A stretch of DNA of 64,000 bases from Haloferax massiliensis (GTDB lineage Archaea; Halobacteriota; Halobacteria; Halobacteriales; Haloferacaceae): the NCBI RefSeq assembly GCF_001368915.1, contig NZ_CSTE01000003.1, forward strand, positions 248,001 to 312,000, written 5' to 3'. The notes under the pieces were generated by a model. It was not told where the DNA came from, ran no database searches, and saw nothing but the letters and a program-made list of their open reading frames with translations. Position 1 is the stretch's first letter, and every line of letters starts with the position of its first letter. This document shows, piece after piece, positions 39,690 to 46,931 of the stretch. The translations under genes were made by a program, and so were the position numbers.

Positions 39690-40490
39690 ATGAGTCAGCC
39701 CGAACCACACTACAGAGAGGTATCTTTCGGTACCCATACGGCCGCTCACTCGGCCGTACGGGAGGAGGCGACGCCCGCCACCCCACGAGTGTCTGTCATC
39801 ATTCCGACGTACAACGAAGCGGAGAACATCCTGCAGGCGATCGACCGCTGTCTCGACGCCCTCGCCGACCACCCCTCCGAGATCATCGTCGTCGACGACG
39901 ACTCCCCGGACGGGACGTGGCGACTCGTCGAACGGCGGTACGACGCGACTGACCACGTTCGCGTCCTCCGGCGCGAGGGAGCGCGCGGGCTGGCAACCGC
40001 TGTCGCCTACGGATTCGCTCACGCCACCGCCGACTGCTGTGCGGTCATCGACGCGGACTTACAGCACCCGCCCGAGTTGCTGCCCGTCCTCGTCGACACG
40101 GTCGCCAACGACGTTGACATCGCCATCGCCAGTCGGTACGTCTCCCGCGGCGGCGTCGCCGCCTGGCCGTGGCACCGCCGGGTCGTCAGTTACGGCGCGA
40201 CGGTTCTCGCTCGGCTCTGTATCCCGTCGGCGAGAGGCGTCGCAGACCCGCTCAGCGGCTACTTCGTCGTCCGCCGCGACCTGCTCCGGGAGGCGACGCT
40301 CAGCCCGACCGGGTACAAGATCCTCTTAGAACTGCTCACGCGCTGTGACGGGGCGCAGGTCCGGGAGGTCCCGTACGTCTTCGTGGACCGGCGAAACGGC
40401 GACTCGAAGCTCTCGTCTCGGGAGTACCTCGAATATCTGCTGCACCTCGCGAAGCTTTCGTACCACAGTCACCGGCGGGTTCGCGCATGA
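39690..40490 (+). CDS. GT2 glycosyltransferase, dolichyl-phosphate mannosyltransferase type
   Basis: A protein of 266 residues. SVIIPTYNEAENI (about 35-47), VVDDDSPDGTW (nucleotide binding) and VIDADLQHPPELLP (the DxD metal site) follow the DPM1 pattern. DPLSGYFVVRRDLL and GYKILLELLTR are also characteristic. No membrane helix is evident, so it acts at the inner face and charges a dolichyl-phosphate with a sugar. The stop overlaps the GT4 start by four bases (ATGA). It opens an operon for surface glycan making. Confidence 0.9.
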   Translation: MSQPEPHYREVSFGTHTAAHSAVREEATPATPRVSVIIPTYNEAENILQAIDRCLDALADHPSEIIVVDDDSPDGTWRLVERRYDATDHVRVLRREGARGLATAVAYGFAHATADCCAVIDADLQHPPELLPVLVDTVANDVDIAIASRYVSRGGVAAWPWHRRVVSYGATVLARLCIPSARGVADPLSGYFVVRRDLLREATLSPTGYKILLELLTRCDGAQVREVPYVFVDRRNGDSKLSSREYLEYLLHLAKLSYHSHRRVRA

Positions 40491-41608
40491 CCGACTTTCC
40501 ACCCGTCCCGTTCGGTGACGACCGCGGCGCGTCGCGCGCGGCACCCCCCGCCCAACCCGCTACCGCGACCGCCACCGATATGCGCGTTGCGCTCTGTCCG
40601 CACCTCTCGCTCGAACACTACCGCGGCGGCGAGAAGTGGACCGCCGCCCTCGCGAACCGACTCGTCGCCGACGGCGTGAACGTCGCCGTCCACGCGCTCC
40701 CGTACGCGCCCGGGAACACGCGCCGCGTCGCCGTCAGAGACGTTCTCGACGCGGCCGTCCCGTACCGCGAGGCGTGGCGACACGACCTCTCGGCGTACGA
40801 TACCGCGTACGTGTTCTACGCGCCGCTTTCCGAACTGTTCTTCACCGGAGCGAGTCGGACCATCGCCGGCATTCACTCGTGGGTCTACGTCTCGCCGCGG
40901 CTGTTCGAATCGCACTACGGACCGGTTCCGACGGTCGTGAAGGCGCTCTACCGAACCATCGGTGCGACCGACATCAGACGGTACACCGCCGTCCACACCG
41001 TGACGCCCGCGTTCAGGTCGCCGCACCCGAACACGGTGTACATCCCCAACTTCGTCGACACAGACCGCTTCTATCCCGGGCGGGTCCCGCTCGACGACGA
41101 GTTCACCGTGCTCGTTACCGCCGCGCGCATCCGCGAGAAGGGATGGGACACGGTGCGAGCGGTCGCCCGTCGCCTCCCGCCGAACGTTCGGTTACTGGCG
41201 ACCGGAACGGGGAGTGACCCGCACGTCACGGACCTCGGGTTCCTTACGGAAGACGAACTCGCGGACGCGTACGCCCGAGCGCACGTCGTCCTCCACGCGG
41301 CCCGCGTCGACACCGACAGCATGGTGATAAACGAGGCGTGCGCCTCCGGAACGCCGGTCGTCACCACGTCGCTGCCGACCCACGACGTCGAAAACGAGGC
41401 GGTTCTCCACCGGGACACGCCGGACGAGATACTCGGCGCGATAGCGATGCTGTACGACGAGTGGGAACGCGGCGACGGCTACGACGAGCGGTGTCGCGTC
41501 TCGCGCCGCGAGGGCGAGACGCACGGGTTCGACGTCGTCTACCCGCAACTCAAGCGGTTACTGCTCGGGCAGACGGTCCCGGCGTCTCGCCCGGAGGTCG
41601 TCGGATGA
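40487..41608 (+). CDS. GT4-family glycosyltransferase
   Basis: A protein of 373 residues with the GT-B fold. The N-terminal domain begins at MRVALCPHLSLEHYRGGEKW (about 32-51), so the first 31 residues are a disordered Ala/Pro-rich head; the ATG inside may be the true start. The C-terminal donor domain has VYIPNFVDTDRFYPG, VLVTAARIREKGWDTV and DTDSMVINEACASGTPVVTT, with the E-x7-E-type motif. It probably adds a sugar to a lipid-linked glycan. It overlaps both neighbours by four bases. Confidence 0.88.
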   Translation: MTDFPPVPFGDDRGASRAAPPAQPATATATDMRVALCPHLSLEHYRGGEKWTAALANRLVADGVNVAVHALPYAPGNTRRVAVRDVLDAAVPYREAWRHDLSAYDTAYVFYAPLSELFFTGASRTIAGIHSWVYVSPRLFESHYGPVPTVVKALYRTIGATDIRRYTAVHTVTPAFRSPHPNTVYIPNFVDTDRFYPGRVPLDDEFTVLVTAARIREKGWDTVRAVARRLPPNVRLLATGTGSDPHVTDLGFLTEDELADAYARAHVVLHAARVDTDSMVINEACASGTPVVTTSLPTHDVENEAVLHRDTPDEILGAIAMLYDEWERGDGYDERCRVSRREGETHGFDVVYPQLKRLLLGQTVPASRPEVVG

Positions 41609-44328
41609 GCGGCGACCAATCGGTCGCCGACCGACTCCGTTCGCTCCCGCTCACCGGGCGTAACAGGCGGTTCGTCCAGTACCTCATCGTCGGCCTCGTC
41701 GGTATCAGTATCAACGAGGGGTTACTGTTCCTCGTGAGCGGCATCGGCGGCCTCTCGTACGTGATCGGGGGCACGGTCGGTCGGGTAGTGAGCACGTTCG
41801 TCAACTTCGTCATCAACGACCGCTGGACGTGGCGGTCCTACGGGGGCATCGGACACCGGCCGTGGGCGTGGCGGGCGACGAAGTACGGGATGACGCGGCT
41901 CGTCGGTATCGCCATCGGCGTCGTCGCGCTCGTCGCGTTCGTCGAACTCCTCGGACTGCACTACCTCGTGGCCAACGTCGCCGCTATCGGCGTCGGCGCG
42001 CTCTGGGGCTTCACCGCCAGCGACCGATTCGTCTGGCAGGCGAGTCGAGAGGGCGCGGTCGCGGGCGACCTCGATTGGCCCGCGGTGCAGGAGCGACTGG
42101 CGAAGGTCGACAGACCGACGTGGTCCGTCGTGGCCGTCTCGGCCGGGGTGTTCGTCGTGTTCAGCCTCCTCACGGTCCAACTCTACCGGGGTTACTGGAC
42201 GACGGGGTCCGACTTCGGCTCGTACGTCCACATGCTCTCGACGACCCTCGATGGACAGGGATTTCTCATCCACGGGAAGTACCGCGTGAGTCACCCGGAG
42301 GGCTCCTACTGGGGTGCGCACTTCTCGTTGACGCTCCTGTTATTCCTCCCGCTTTTCGCGGTCGTTCGGTCGCCGATGACGCTCCTCGTCGCGAAGTCGT
42401 TCCTCCTCGCGTCCAGCGTGCTGGCCCTCTGGTTCGTCGCCCGAACGCACATCCGGAGCGACCGCCTCGCCGGGGCGGTCGTCCTCTCGTACGCGCTCAA
42501 CCCGTTCCTCTGGTCGGCGTGGCTGTTCGACTTCCAGGAGCAGTCGCTGCTCCCGGTTCTCATCTTCGGCGCGTACTACGCGTACGCCCGCCGCCGATAC
42601 GTCGCGTTCTTGGGCCTTCTCGCGCTCGTACTCCTCACGAACGAGTTCGTCATCTTCATCGTCATCGGCGCGCTCTCCGGCCTCGTCGTCGCGGCGTACC
42701 GCGGCGGCCGACTCGACGACGAGCGCTGGGTGCTCCTCGCCGGCTTCCTGTTCGTCCTGTTCGCGCAGGTGCTCTCCGGGGCGGTCATGGACCGATTCAG
42801 CCTCTACGGCGGTATCCCGATGGCGTCCATCGCCGGCCCGCTCAAGCCGTACGTCGGTCCGCGGGTGGGCGTCGGCGAGCTACTCGCGCTCGGCGTGCGC
42901 GACCCGACGCTCATCGTCAGCGCGCTCGGCGTGAACCTCTCCGACAAGCTGCTCTACTTCGTCGTCTTTCTCGTCCCCGTCGTCTTCCTCTCGCTGAACG
43001 ACGAGGTGTCGGTCGGTGCGCTCGCCCCGTACCTCCTGTTTTCGTGGTTCTTCGCGGGGCGGTCGATTTACTACATGTTCGGCGCGCACTACCCGCTTTA
43101 CCTCCTCCCGTTTCTCTACGTCGGAGCCGTCCGCGTCGTGGGCCGGAGCGCGATTTCGATACCGTCTCAGGAGCTCCTGTTTCGGTTGCTGGCGACCGTC
43201 ATCGCCATCAACATCGTCACGGGAGCCGTCGTCGGGTTCGACCTGAACGTCGTCCCGGTACCGACGCAGAACGAACACACTGAGACGCTCGAACGCGCCA
43301 TCGACGGCATTCCGGCCGACGCGTCGTTGCTCACGCAGAACGATATCTACCCCCACGTCGCGATGCGGCCGAACGCGACCTACGTCGTTCGACCCGATAT
43401 GTTCCACCAGTACCAACTGGAGTACGGGGCTATCACGCCGGAGTACGTCCTCTACGATACCCGCCTCACCGGCCGGCCGTACGACTGGTCGCGGGCCGTT
43501 CAAGCGGCGTTCGGCGACCGCCTCGGAACCGAGTACGGTCTCTATCAGTACCAAGACGGCATCTACGTCTACAAACGGGGCTACAGCGGGCGGATTGCTC
43601 TCATCGACGACGACTACGAGTTCGACGAGCGGTTCGACGCCGGCGAGTTCGAACTCAGTCAGGAGAACGCGCGAGTCGTCGGTGACGACATCGTCGGCAG
43701 CGGGGCGGGCGAGGGCAACCTCTGGTTCGGTCCCTATATCGAACTCCCGCCGGGGAACTACACCGCGACCTACCGCGTGAACGTCGAGAGCACCGGCGAC
43801 GACCCCGTGTTGCGACTGAACGTCGGCGCGGGCCACAACAGCCGGGTCGTCGCCGAGCGGACCGTCGGCGCGACCGACGGTTGGGAGAACGTGACGCTCG
43901 CGTTCACGCTCGACCGACCCACGACGGGCGTCGAGTTCCGCGGGGCACAGGCGGGCGGCAACGGGACGGTTCGGTTCGACGCCGTCCGCGTCGTGCTCCA
44001 GTCGACCGACTACGAAACCGGCGGCCCGGGGAACGGAACGACCGCAGCGGGAAGCGCGGTGCCTCCCGAGCTGTGGATGGAACTGAACTCGGTCCCGGCC
44101 GAGGACGACCCGTCCGTCGACGCGAACGAAAGCGACGCCGACGTGAACGCGAACGAAAGCGACGCCGAAACTGACGATACCGGTCCCGCCGAGACAGGCG
44201 GGTCCGGCGTGGCTCGACTGGCGGCGTTTCCCGCGGGGCTGACCACCGGTCCGCCACCTGCGTCCCCCGCTCGCCCGTCACGAATCGACAGCGACCGCGC
44301 ACCGTCCGCCGAGGTATCCGACGAATGA
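41605..44328 (+). CDS. GtrA domain fused to DUF2079 membrane protein with beta-rich tail
   Basis: A protein of 907 residues with three parts. Residues about 20-145 form a GtrA-like four-helix domain (RFVQYLIVGLVGISINEGLL, TFVNFVINDRWTW, GFTASDRFVW) thought to flip lipid-linked sugars. Residues about 170-690 are a DUF2079 polytopic region with GSYWGAHFSLTLLL and FQEQSLLPVLIFGAYYA, resembling GT-C-type glycan enzymes. Residues about 700-830 are a beta-sandwich (PGNYTATYRVNVEST) like a carbohydrate-binding module. The tail repeats DANESDAD/NANESDAE and is disordered. It overlaps both neighbours (ATGA). The fusion supports flipping and outside sugar transfer by one chain. Confidence 0.85.
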   Translation: MSGDQSVADRLRSLPLTGRNRRFVQYLIVGLVGISINEGLLFLVSGIGGLSYVIGGTVGRVVSTFVNFVINDRWTWRSYGGIGHRPWAWRATKYGMTRLVGIAIGVVALVAFVELLGLHYLVANVAAIGVGALWGFTASDRFVWQASREGAVAGDLDWPAVQERLAKVDRPTWSVVAVSAGVFVVFSLLTVQLYRGYWTTGSDFGSYVHMLSTTLDGQGFLIHGKYRVSHPEGSYWGAHFSLTLLLFLPLFAVVRSPMTLLVAKSFLLASSVLALWFVARTHIRSDRLAGAVVLSYALNPFLWSAWLFDFQEQSLLPVLIFGAYYAYARRRYVAFLGLLALVLLTNEFVIFIVIGALSGLVVAAYRGGRLDDERWVLLAGFLFVLFAQVLSGAVMDRFSLYGGIPMASIAGPLKPYVGPRVGVGELLALGVRDPTLIVSALGVNLSDKLLYFVVFLVPVVFLSLNDEVSVGALAPYLLFSWFFAGRSIYYMFGAHYPLYLLPFLYVGAVRVVGRSAISIPSQELLFRLLATVIAINIVTGAVVGFDLNVVPVPTQNEHTETLERAIDGIPADASLLTQNDIYPHVAMRPNATYVVRPDMFHQYQLEYGAITPEYVLYDTRLTGRPYDWSRAVQAAFGDRLGTEYGLYQYQDGIYVYKRGYSGRIALIDDDYEFDERFDAGEFELSQENARVVGDDIVGSGAGEGNLWFGPYIELPPGNYTATYRVNVESTGDDPVLRLNVGAGHNSRVVAERTVGATDGWENVTLAFTLDRPTTGVEFRGAQAGGNGTVRFDAVRVVLQSTDYETGGPGNGTTAAGSAVPPELWMELNSVPAEDDPSVDANESDADVNANESDAETDDTGPAETGGSGVARLAAFPAGLTTGPPPASPARPSRIDSDRAPSAEVSDE

Positions 44329-45677
44329 AAACGCTACTCATCACCGTCGACGCGTGGCGCGCCAGCCACGCGTCGTTCATGCCGAACAGCACAGCGTCAC
44401 GAACGCCGGCCCTGGAGTCGCTCGCCGAGCGCGGCGCGGTCTTCACGCAGGCCGTCAGCCACGGCCCGGCGACGCCGTACGCGTTTCCGGCGCTGTTGAC
44501 ATCGACGTATCCGCTCGATTTCGGGGGGTACGAGCGGATTCGAGAGGACCGGACGCTCCTGAGCGAACGGCTCGCCGACGCCGGATACACCTGTACCGGG
44601 ATTCACGCGAACCCGTGGCTCGGCGAGAGATACGGCTACGCGCGCGGCTACGAGAGCTACCGCGATGTCGGGGCGTTCAGTTCCCCGACGCTCGATAGCG
44701 GCCGGGAGTTCCTTATCAACCGATTCGGCCTCGACCACCCGGTGTACCGGGCGGCACAGTACCTGTTCCGGTTCGGCAGTGCCCCGCTGTACCGCCTTCG
44801 CGGCGGGGCCGACGAGGTGTCGCTGGCGCGGCGAGCGCTCGCCGATGCGCCGGCGGACAGTTTCGTCTGGGTCCACCTCCTCGACCCGCACGCTCCCTAC
44901 ACGCCGCCGAAGCGACACCGCGAGGCCGTCGGCGTCCGGTTGGGTCGGTCGTCGGCAACCCAGTTGACGACGCGGGCGCAACACGCCCCGGACAGCCTCA
45001 GCGAACGGGAACGCGAGTTGGTTCGCAAACTCTACGACGCCTCGGTCCGGCACGCGGACGAGCGCGTCGGAGCGCTCCTCTCGGAGGTCGGCGACGACGC
45101 GCTCGTCGTCGTCACGGCCGACCACGGCGAGGCGCTCTTCGAGCACGGACAGGTCGGTCACGAACCCGCGCTGTACGACGAGTTGGTTCACGTCCCGCTT
45201 TTGATTCGCCCGCCCGCGAGCGGAATCGCCGGCCCGCTCGTCGTCGACACGCAGGTCAGACACGTCGACATCGCGCCCACCGTCCTCGATTACGCCGGCG
45301 TCGACGCCCCGTCGTCGTTCAGGGGGCGGTCGCTCCGGCCCGCAATCGAGGGGAGGGCGATTCCGGAACGACCGGCCGTGACGGAAGTCGCGTCGACCCG
45401 GCAGACGCCCGGTCGCATCGACGAGTCCGCGTTACAGATCGGCGTCAGACTGCCCACGCACAAACTCATTTCGCGGGGAGACGAACTGTACGGGTTCGAC
45501 CTGCAGGCCGACGCGGGTGAACTCGCCCCGATTCCGAACCCCGAGGGTGCCGACTGGCGGCCGCTGCACCGTCAGCTACGCGAGCGCCGCGACGCCATCG
45601 ACTTCACCGGGACGGTCGCCGCCGAGCGCGACGCGGCCGTCGAGGAGCGACTCCGCGAACTCGGCTATCTCGACTGA
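44325..45677 (+). CDS. sulfatase-like alkaline phosphatase superfamily enzyme
   Basis: A protein of 450 residues without signal peptide. ITVDAWRASHASFM supplies the first metal Asp8 and VVVTADHGEALFEHGQVGHE the second metal His/Asp set. The nucleophile region HGPATPYAFPALLTSTYP has Thr (about 50) where classic sulfatases have the Cys/Ser of CxPxR, so it cannot be a formylglycine sulfatase. It is closer to phospho-/sulfo-transferring members. Its C-terminal ERLRELGYLD is common in haloarchaeal sulfatases of surface-glycan loci. It is the last gene of the operon begun at 39690. Confidence 0.88.
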   Translation: MKTLLITVDAWRASHASFMPNSTASRTPALESLAERGAVFTQAVSHGPATPYAFPALLTSTYPLDFGGYERIREDRTLLSERLADAGYTCTGIHANPWLGERYGYARGYESYRDVGAFSSPTLDSGREFLINRFGLDHPVYRAAQYLFRFGSAPLYRLRGGADEVSLARRALADAPADSFVWVHLLDPHAPYTPPKRHREAVGVRLGRSSATQLTTRAQHAPDSLSERERELVRKLYDASVRHADERVGALLSEVGDDALVVVTADHGEALFEHGQVGHEPALYDELVHVPLLIRPPASGIAGPLVVDTQVRHVDIAPTVLDYAGVDAPSSFRGRSLRPAIEGRAIPERPAVTEVASTRQTPGRIDESALQIGVRLPTHKLISRGDELYGFDLQADAGELAPIPNPEGADWRPLHRQLRERRDAIDFTGTVAAERDAAVEERLRELGYLD

Positions 45678-46127
45678 CCCGCTCTGTGTCCCGTGGGGTC
45701 GCCCGGCGAGCGCGTGGCTCGGCCCGCGTTCGCCCCCATCTCGTGCGAAGACGACGGCCACTCACGGGACCCCACATATTGTGACAATCAACTACCAAAC
45801 TCATTATTAATAGTAAATTTATGTTGTATATATACCATATGATACTCGAACTGAGTCGTTCTACAGAGTCTGACCAGACGACGTCAGTCGCGGATATCGA
45901 GCGTCGAGATTTGACCGAGATACGAGGCGGAACGTCGGCGGCGGGGACGGCATCATTGGCCGGTTGTGCGGGCGAGGCGGTGACGGTGTTCGCCGAGCCC
46001 GCACACCCGTACGCGCGGGCGCTTCTGTCGGGCATCCTCAGTCCAGACCCGTCGGCGTCGGCGGCGGAGAGACAGAAGCGCTGTCCGCTGTCCGAGGCTT
46101 TTTCTCGCCGCGTAATGCACAGTCGTC
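45678..46127. other. 450-base interval holding an ABC-operon deletion scar
   Basis: The interval has an AT-rich centre at 45775-45840 (TATTAATAGTAAATTTATGTTGTATATATACC) that looks like a strong promoter. It is followed by the chimeric relic at 45839-46090. The TATA box is likely that of the lost binding-protein gene. Confidence 0.5.
45839..46090 (+). pseudogene. in-frame scar: N-terminus of a peptide-binding lipoprotein joined to the C-terminus of an OppF/DppF ATPase
   Basis: The frame reads VADIERRDLTEIRGGTSAAG and TASLAGCAG, a Tat signal with lipobox as found on dipeptide-binding proteins. It then passes without a break into GEAVTVFAEPAHPYARALLSG and ILSPDPS. The latter is the hallmark C-terminal segment of oligopeptide-importer ATPases ('vF--P-HPYt-aLLsa-p-pdp'). 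Binding-protein and OppF-type genes normally sit at opposite ends of one operon, so the join records deletion of everything between. The frame stays open to 46216, but the part after about 46090 overlaps the next gene and is meaningless. Confidence 0.75.
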
Positions 46128-46931
46128 ATGGACGCAGACCCCCGCGAAGCAGTCGCAGTCGCCGCCGCGGAAGTGGGAGCAGAGCACGCGTCGGCGCGGT
46201 TCAGGACCGAACTTGACATCGAACAGAAGGACGACGAAATCGACCTCGTGACCGAGGTCGACCGCGAGACGCAACGGCGGGTCATCGCGGAGATTCGAGA
46301 GCGGTTCCCCGACGACGCGGTCGTCGGCGAGGAGGAAGACGAACTGAAGACCGTCCCCGAGTCGGGCTACGCGTGGATTATCGACCCGATAGACGGGACG
46401 CAAAACTACACGCGGGGGGCCCGCGAGTGGGTGACGAGCGTCGCCGTCGTCGAAGACCAGACGCCGATTGCGGCGGTGAACGTCTCCCCCGAGACGGGCG
46501 ACACGTACGTCGCCACGGAGGCGCGAGTCGAGCGGAACGGACGGCCCATCTCGGTCAACGACGAACCGAACACCAGCGCCTTTCTCGTCTCCTCGACGCT
46601 TCGGTACCGGGAGGGTGACAGACCGGGAATCGAACGGCTTTCGGGGGACGTCTTCGGGACGTTCGGGGAGATGCGGAAGCTCGGAACGACGCAGCTAACG
46701 CTTTCGAGACTCGCCGACGGCTCGATAGACGCCGTCATCGGACTCGACGAGCATCCGAACGCGTGGGACACCGTCGCCGGAGCCTACCTCGTCGAGCGCG
46801 CGGGCGGGATAGTAACCGACATTCACGGGAACGGGTGGGGACCGGGGCAGCCCGGCCTCGTCGCGTCCAACGGGCGCGCACACGACGAGGTACTCGACGC
46901 GGCGCAGGCGGCGTTCGAGGCGACGCGATAG
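46128..46931 (+). CDS. inositol monophosphatase / FBPase-IV-like sugar phosphatase
   Basis: A protein of 267 residues. Metal-binding residues are visible: GEEE at 67-70, DPIDGT at 86-91 and WDTVAG near residue 213 (usually WDxAAG). DLVTEVDRETQRRVIAEI matches the family's start of the fold. Archaeal members dephosphorylate myo-inositol-1-phosphate, fructose-1,6-bisphosphate or PAP-like substrates, and the sequence alone does not decide. An N-terminal DADPREAVAVAAAEVGAEHAS helix is usual. It is monocistronic. Confidence 0.9.
   Translation: MDADPREAVAVAAAEVGAEHASARFRTELDIEQKDDEIDLVTEVDRETQRRVIAEIRERFPDDAVVGEEEDELKTVPESGYAWIIDPIDGTQNYTRGAREWVTSVAVVEDQTPIAAVNVSPETGDTYVATEARVERNGRPISVNDEPNTSAFLVSSTLRYREGDRPGIERLSGDVFGTFGEMRKLGTTQLTLSRLADGSIDAVIGLDEHPNAWDTVAGAYLVERAGGIVTDIHGNGWGPGQPGLVASNGRAHDEVLDAAQAAFEATR

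Follow-up and report, generated by a model that had tools for sequence, protein, structure and literature searches.

A relic of a peptide-importer operon was identified between a sulfatase-family gene and an inositol-monophosphatase-family gene in the window, i.e. the complete stretch of 64,000 nucleotides of Haloferax massiliensis DNA that was analyzed. With a probability of roughly 0.92, this locus represents an operon pseudogene, which appears to have been eroded in place by different deletions in sister species and would not be functional. On the + strand, a frame containing ...IERRDLTEIRGGTSAAGTASLAGCAG immediately followed by EAVTVFAEPAHPYARALLSGILSPDPSAS... joins the start of a binding protein to the tail of OppF. 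The frame is present and both homologies were recovered, which verified the chimera of opposite ends of one operon that was reported in the first-pass annotation. The frame opens at an ATG (45821 or 45839) and closes inside the next gene, with a stop codon at 46214-46216; position 46090, initially taken as its end, lies in a CTG and not in a stop codon.

The left flank of the remnant is the sulfatase-family gene (44325-45677, + strand; Pfam Sulfatase, E 1.8e-31), whose protein is 95% identical to its counterpart in H. sulfurifontis and 94% identical to that in H. denitrificans. Matches of at least 94% were detected in three of 15 Haloferax genomes, a sample that includes the genome of H. massiliensis itself. 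The right flank is the inositol-monophosphatase-family gene (46128-46931, + strand; Pfam Inositol_P, E 3.6e-49), which is matched at 89% or more in seven of these 15 genomes. Directly upstream of it, positions 46065-46127 form the right-hand edge of the remnant and are conserved in the three Haloferax species (54-57 of 58 alignment columns identical in pairwise comparisons), as expected for the intact upstream region of this gene. Similarity to four additional genomes of the genus starts at 46048-46082, and these four do not contain the sulfatase orthologue. A sulfatase orthologue adjoining the inositol-monophosphatase-family gene was found in only three of the 15 genomes, and all three carry remnants. 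As a separate observation, window positions 40001-45749 have colinear counterparts in H. sulfurifontis and in H. denitrificans, the only two of the 14 other genomes with a sulfatase orthologue at 94% or more, and the stretch may therefore be a lineage-specific island. The right-hand gene also has a second copy in the H. massiliensis genome (G000:C4:47940-48728, 74% protein identity). With regard to a possible derivation of the remnant from another importer of this genome, positions 45700-46200 were searched against it at the DNA level; only the locus itself and, for the right-flank part, a place overlapping the start of a paralogue of the inositol-monophosphatase-family gene were returned.

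No intact operon between these flanks was found in any genome examined. Whole operons from other loci served as yardsticks. A family search of 170 genomes with a joined query matched eight genomes, one being the record of H. sulfurifontis; of the seven others, five were examined. A search of the order covered 392 genomes drawn evenly from a larger group, used parts of the H. sulfurifontis remnant as queries and matched five genomes, from which the weak matches in G028 (E 7e-4) and G394 (E 3e-4) were left out. The closest whole operons found, L108 (genome G222) and L109 (G309), both come from a single genus of a different family within the order. Both encode a family-5 substrate-binding protein (SBP), an M28 peptidase, two permeases, OppD and OppF, in this order; the assignment was made with Pfam for all six genes of L108 and by ORF layout and similarity for L109. 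From the SBP ATG to the OppF stop codon the operons span 7,500 bases in L108, counted from the aligned ATG (the mechanically called ORF opens 23 codons upstream of it), and 7,380 bases in L109. More distant operons, with five genes visible in L066 and spans that fit five genes in L069 and L070, gave way to these closer ones as yardsticks; the five-gene operon assumed at the outset thus becomes a six-gene operon in the closest whole examples. The genomes with only the right-hand gene (G004, G009, G011 and G014; loci L053-L056) were searched as well. There, tblastn with the remnant peptides reached a best E of only 0.27, and queries with whole SBP and OppF matched only L053 (G009), with no SBP; the match is a general ABC ATPase encoded on the opposite strand at a distance of 5.7 kb from that gene.

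The binding-protein part of the remnant (45881-45970, + strand) resembles the N-termini of family-5 SBPs and retains the lipobox LAGC. Its identity to the SBP starts of L108 and L109 is 48-50% over 25 and 24 residues, with E-values of 3e-6 and 7e-5, respectively, which are valid for that small search set. In the alignment it lines up with the SBP starts of both sister species. Homology had previously been drawn from 45839, but the first 14 codons of that frame (45839-45880) are the former leader, outside the ancestral protein, and the matching leader of both sister species contains in-frame stop codons. The OppF part (45971-46064, + strand) corresponds to residues 247-277, approximately, of the 454 residues of the closest whole OppF and is 79% identical to the L108 OppF gene at the DNA level (95 alignment columns, E 2e-16); the match to the L108 OppD gene is poorer (77% over 56, E 1e-6). 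The fusion point is best set at 45971, where similarity to OppF begins, instead of the earlier estimate of about 45965. A second junction lies at about 46064/46065, and approximately 184 bases of operon coding sequence are left in the window.

As both fragments are short, an assembly error or a chance similarity was considered. The letters of each half were shuffled and scored against the ORFs of six loci holding Opp-type operons, and none of 500 shuffles reached the real score of either half, which makes chance unlikely for both, even though the margin for the binding-protein half is small (29.6 bits versus a shuffle maximum of 26.2). Homologous remnants are also found at the same place in the H. 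sulfurifontis and H. denitrificans assemblies, and error or chance is hardly credible as an explanation. The decay of an operon in place is nevertheless not free of difficulties, as the binding-protein half is a short stretch with just 48-50% identity to the closest whole operons, and its assignment depends in part on the alignment with the remnants of the sister species.

Domain searches point to a fragment that would be derived from the OppF/DppF family without being a member of it. The OppF half matched Pfam oligo_HPY (E 3e-5) at profile positions 4-38 of 65 with 24.7 bits, below the gathering cut-off of 27.1; its matches to two NCBIfam OppF models had E-values of 8e-5 and 2e-4 and fell far short of the model cut-offs. 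In a Pfam search up to E 10, oligo_HPY and Septum_form (E 0.081) were the sole matches of the 100-residue chimera; ABC_tran, which is present in the whole OppF proteins of L070, L069 and L108, was not found in it, under HMMER filters that drop most weak matches. Likewise, Pfam detected no SBP_bac_5 domain in the chimera, and one of the H. sulfurifontis pieces matched this domain with E 8e-4, under the curated cut-off. Twenty-four other oligo_HPY domains over the cut-off are encoded in the H. massiliensis genome, so the lost importer was one of many. Compared with the known Opp/Dpp importer operon (family-5 SBP, BPD_transp_1 permeases, OppD and OppF with oligo_HPY), the fragments of the window and the sister species match parts of it in the right order and on the right strand, but the window keeps only about 184 coding bases of 7.4-7.5 kb, and neither an ATPase core nor a permease or binding domain was detected in the window remnant. 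Among the matches found, the M28-peptidase type of L108 and L109 ranks first at the DNA level for the OppF fragment of the window (79%) and at the protein level for an SBP piece of H. sulfurifontis (87%). Unlike the remnant, this operon is whole, with six genes.

The sister species H. sulfurifontis (L012) and H. denitrificans (L013), whose records were taken to be the same as G002 and G001, respectively, were compared with the window over 12 kb. Their flanks are 92-94% identical to the window DNA and only the gap differs; between the flanks drawn by BLAST it measures about 340 bases in the window versus 850 in L012 and about 315 in the window versus 285 in L013. In the alignment, all three species share a promoter-like block, a leader and the gene start, which are followed by different contents. 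H. sulfurifontis retains three binding-protein pieces (codons 1-16 and residues 97-126 and about 272-301 in L109 numbering) and the OppF C-terminus as residues 326-399 and 407-453, which lie in two frames and hence indicate a frameshift, while the only leftover in H. denitrificans is a frameshifted binding-protein start. The window contains OppF residues 247-276 and lacks both OppF 326-453 and the SBP interior that H. sulfurifontis keeps; conversely, OppF 247-276 was not found in L012, and none of these pieces was detected in H. denitrificans. These complementary leftovers indicate that the window and L012 underwent separate deletion events, which came after an ancestor with all these parts. 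One alternative is that already broken operon fragments were inserted by transfer, which would account for the lack of an intact operon at the locus in the genomes examined and for the closest whole operons found being located in another family of the order. However, the three remnants have the promoter block, the leader and the gene start at the same place and differ in the pieces downstream, which fits one longer decaying ancestor better than three insertions, and such a transfer is considered quite improbable. Decay in place is also in line with the divergence of the remnants. The remnant SBP codons are 72, 65 and 84% identical in the three species pairs, similar to adjacent non-coding DNA (74-80%), and in each pair lower than at fourfold-degenerate sites of the flanking genes (94-97% in the sulfatase gene and 84-87% in the inositol-monophosphatase-family gene). 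Judged from these alignments, such divergence would be as expected of DNA that is free from selection.

The following course of events is proposed. An ancestor of the three Haloferax species would have carried an importer operon for a binding lipoprotein, an M28 peptidase, two permeases, OppD and OppF between the sulfatase and inositol-monophosphatase-family genes. The whole operon at this very locus, and the peptidase gene within it, can only be inferred, because the operon was not found between these flanks in any of the genomes examined. Once it was no longer useful, the operon would have suffered internal deletions that differed between the sister lineages. In the lineage of the window, one deletion would have joined codon 30, approximately, of the binding protein to about codon 247 of OppF, and another would have taken away the end of OppF, starting at about codon 277 and reaching past the stop codon. 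As the C-terminus of OppF is also gone, a minimum of two deletions is required, and the single deletion proposed earlier is not sufficient. The first would have removed about 6.8 kb by comparison with L108 or 6.7 kb by comparison with L109; the second would have taken 0.5 kb or more. Coordinate arithmetic with the more distant L066, L070 and L069 gives about 5.5, 5.7 and 6.0 kb for the first deletion, so the previous estimate of 5-6 kb agrees with these operons but falls short of the closest ones. The junction carries the four bases GGCG, which are common to the window, both OppF genes and the L109 SBP gene (GGGG in the L108 SBP gene). The parents are too distant for this sharing to count as evidence for short direct repeats, which the first-pass annotation had advised looking for near the junction, and the window alone cannot reveal such repeats because only one copy survives a deletion. 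The fusion in frame would be a one-in-three accident, and the long open frame may be explained by the scarcity of stop codons in GC-rich DNA.

It was also considered whether the fusion gave birth to a real small exported lipoprotein that is now in use. The frame is stop-free from 45839 to 46213, which is compatible with translation and speaks against mere decay, it encodes a twin arginine and a lipobox, and a promoter-like block lies upstream of it. However, the position of the ancestral start codon (45881-45883, + strand) is ACG in the window, where ATG is aligned in both sister species and in both whole operons (L012, L013, L108 and L109); the old ATG would thus have changed to ACG in this lineage. 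Although RR and LAGC are kept, the stretch between them is degraded by comparison with the whole operons, and the signal core reads RRDLTEIRGG instead of RRQFLKVAGG and RRKFIKIVGG. The frame further overlaps the inositol-monophosphatase-family gene, which starts at 46128. An intact copy of the short gene in close relatives, which would have contradicted the first-pass annotation, was not found in the two named sister species: the binding-protein frame is stopped after 16 codons in H. sulfurifontis and after 14 codons in H. denitrificans, with stop codons in the leader as well as in the gene start of both. With ACG at the ancestral start and the ATG chosen at first located in the old leader, translation of the chimera into an exported lipoprotein, as envisaged at first, is unlikely, and a lipoprotein in present use is very unlikely. 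As far as sequence comparison can tell, no protein function is expected of the remnant. Its assignment as an operon pseudogene is based on the whole operons present elsewhere (L108 and L109) and on the two deletions and the start codon loss here.

An AT-rich, promoter-like block (45802-45834, + strand) is common to the three Haloferax species and probably belonged to the lost operon. Its pairwise identities are 27/33, 25/33 and 30/33 (76-91%), and those of the leader just after it are 25/45, 20/45 and 30/45 (44-67%) for the same three pairs; the limits of both were chosen after the alignment was seen. Aligned to the L108 and L109 leaders, the leader of the window scores no higher than shuffled sequences (724 and 762 of 1,000 shuffles were as good, respectively). 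The leaders of H. sulfurifontis and H. denitrificans fail in the same manner against L108 (733/1,000 and 740/1,000), but against L109 the former gives a clear signal (2/1,000) and the latter a weak one (39/1,000). The survival of the original promoter at about 45800, as previously proposed, is therefore plausible with regard to the shared block, but the leader of the window could not be linked to those of the whole operons. As the block was spared from erosion in three species, selection might have preserved the dead operon's promoter and leader, and the block could drive a small RNA or aid the downstream inositol-monophosphatase-family gene, an idea that is regarded as improbable.

The remnant is of an ordinary kind, and the case for it is well documented. 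Many prokaryotic pseudogenes are reported to stem from failed horizontal transfers (PMC522871). The remnant resembles such pseudogenes in being disabled by deletions and a lost start codon, with a frameshift and stop codons in the sister species, and differs from them in that a whole operon was cut down to its two ends and is found in three states at one locus. No publication describing this locus was found among titles and the openings of abstracts, and a description may still be in print. One operon in three states of loss at one locus of sister species provides a gauge of how unused genes are erased in archaea, and the open frame is a warning to annotators that it should not be called a lipoprotein gene. 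Ideas on peptide transport are left unchanged by the remnant.

Two further observations concern the importer proteins. Some haloarchaeal OppF proteins contain a stretch of roughly 75 residues past oligo_HPY (residues 326-400 of the L108 OppF and its relatives), and a remnant copy of it in H. sulfurifontis (L012:10793-11074) matched no Pfam or NCBIfam family. The M28 peptidase gene within the L108 and L109 operons suggests that peptide uptake may be coupled to cleavage. ORFs resembling an M28-type peptidase were also seen by eye near the SBP gene at L066:9080-10426 and L067:10828-12189.
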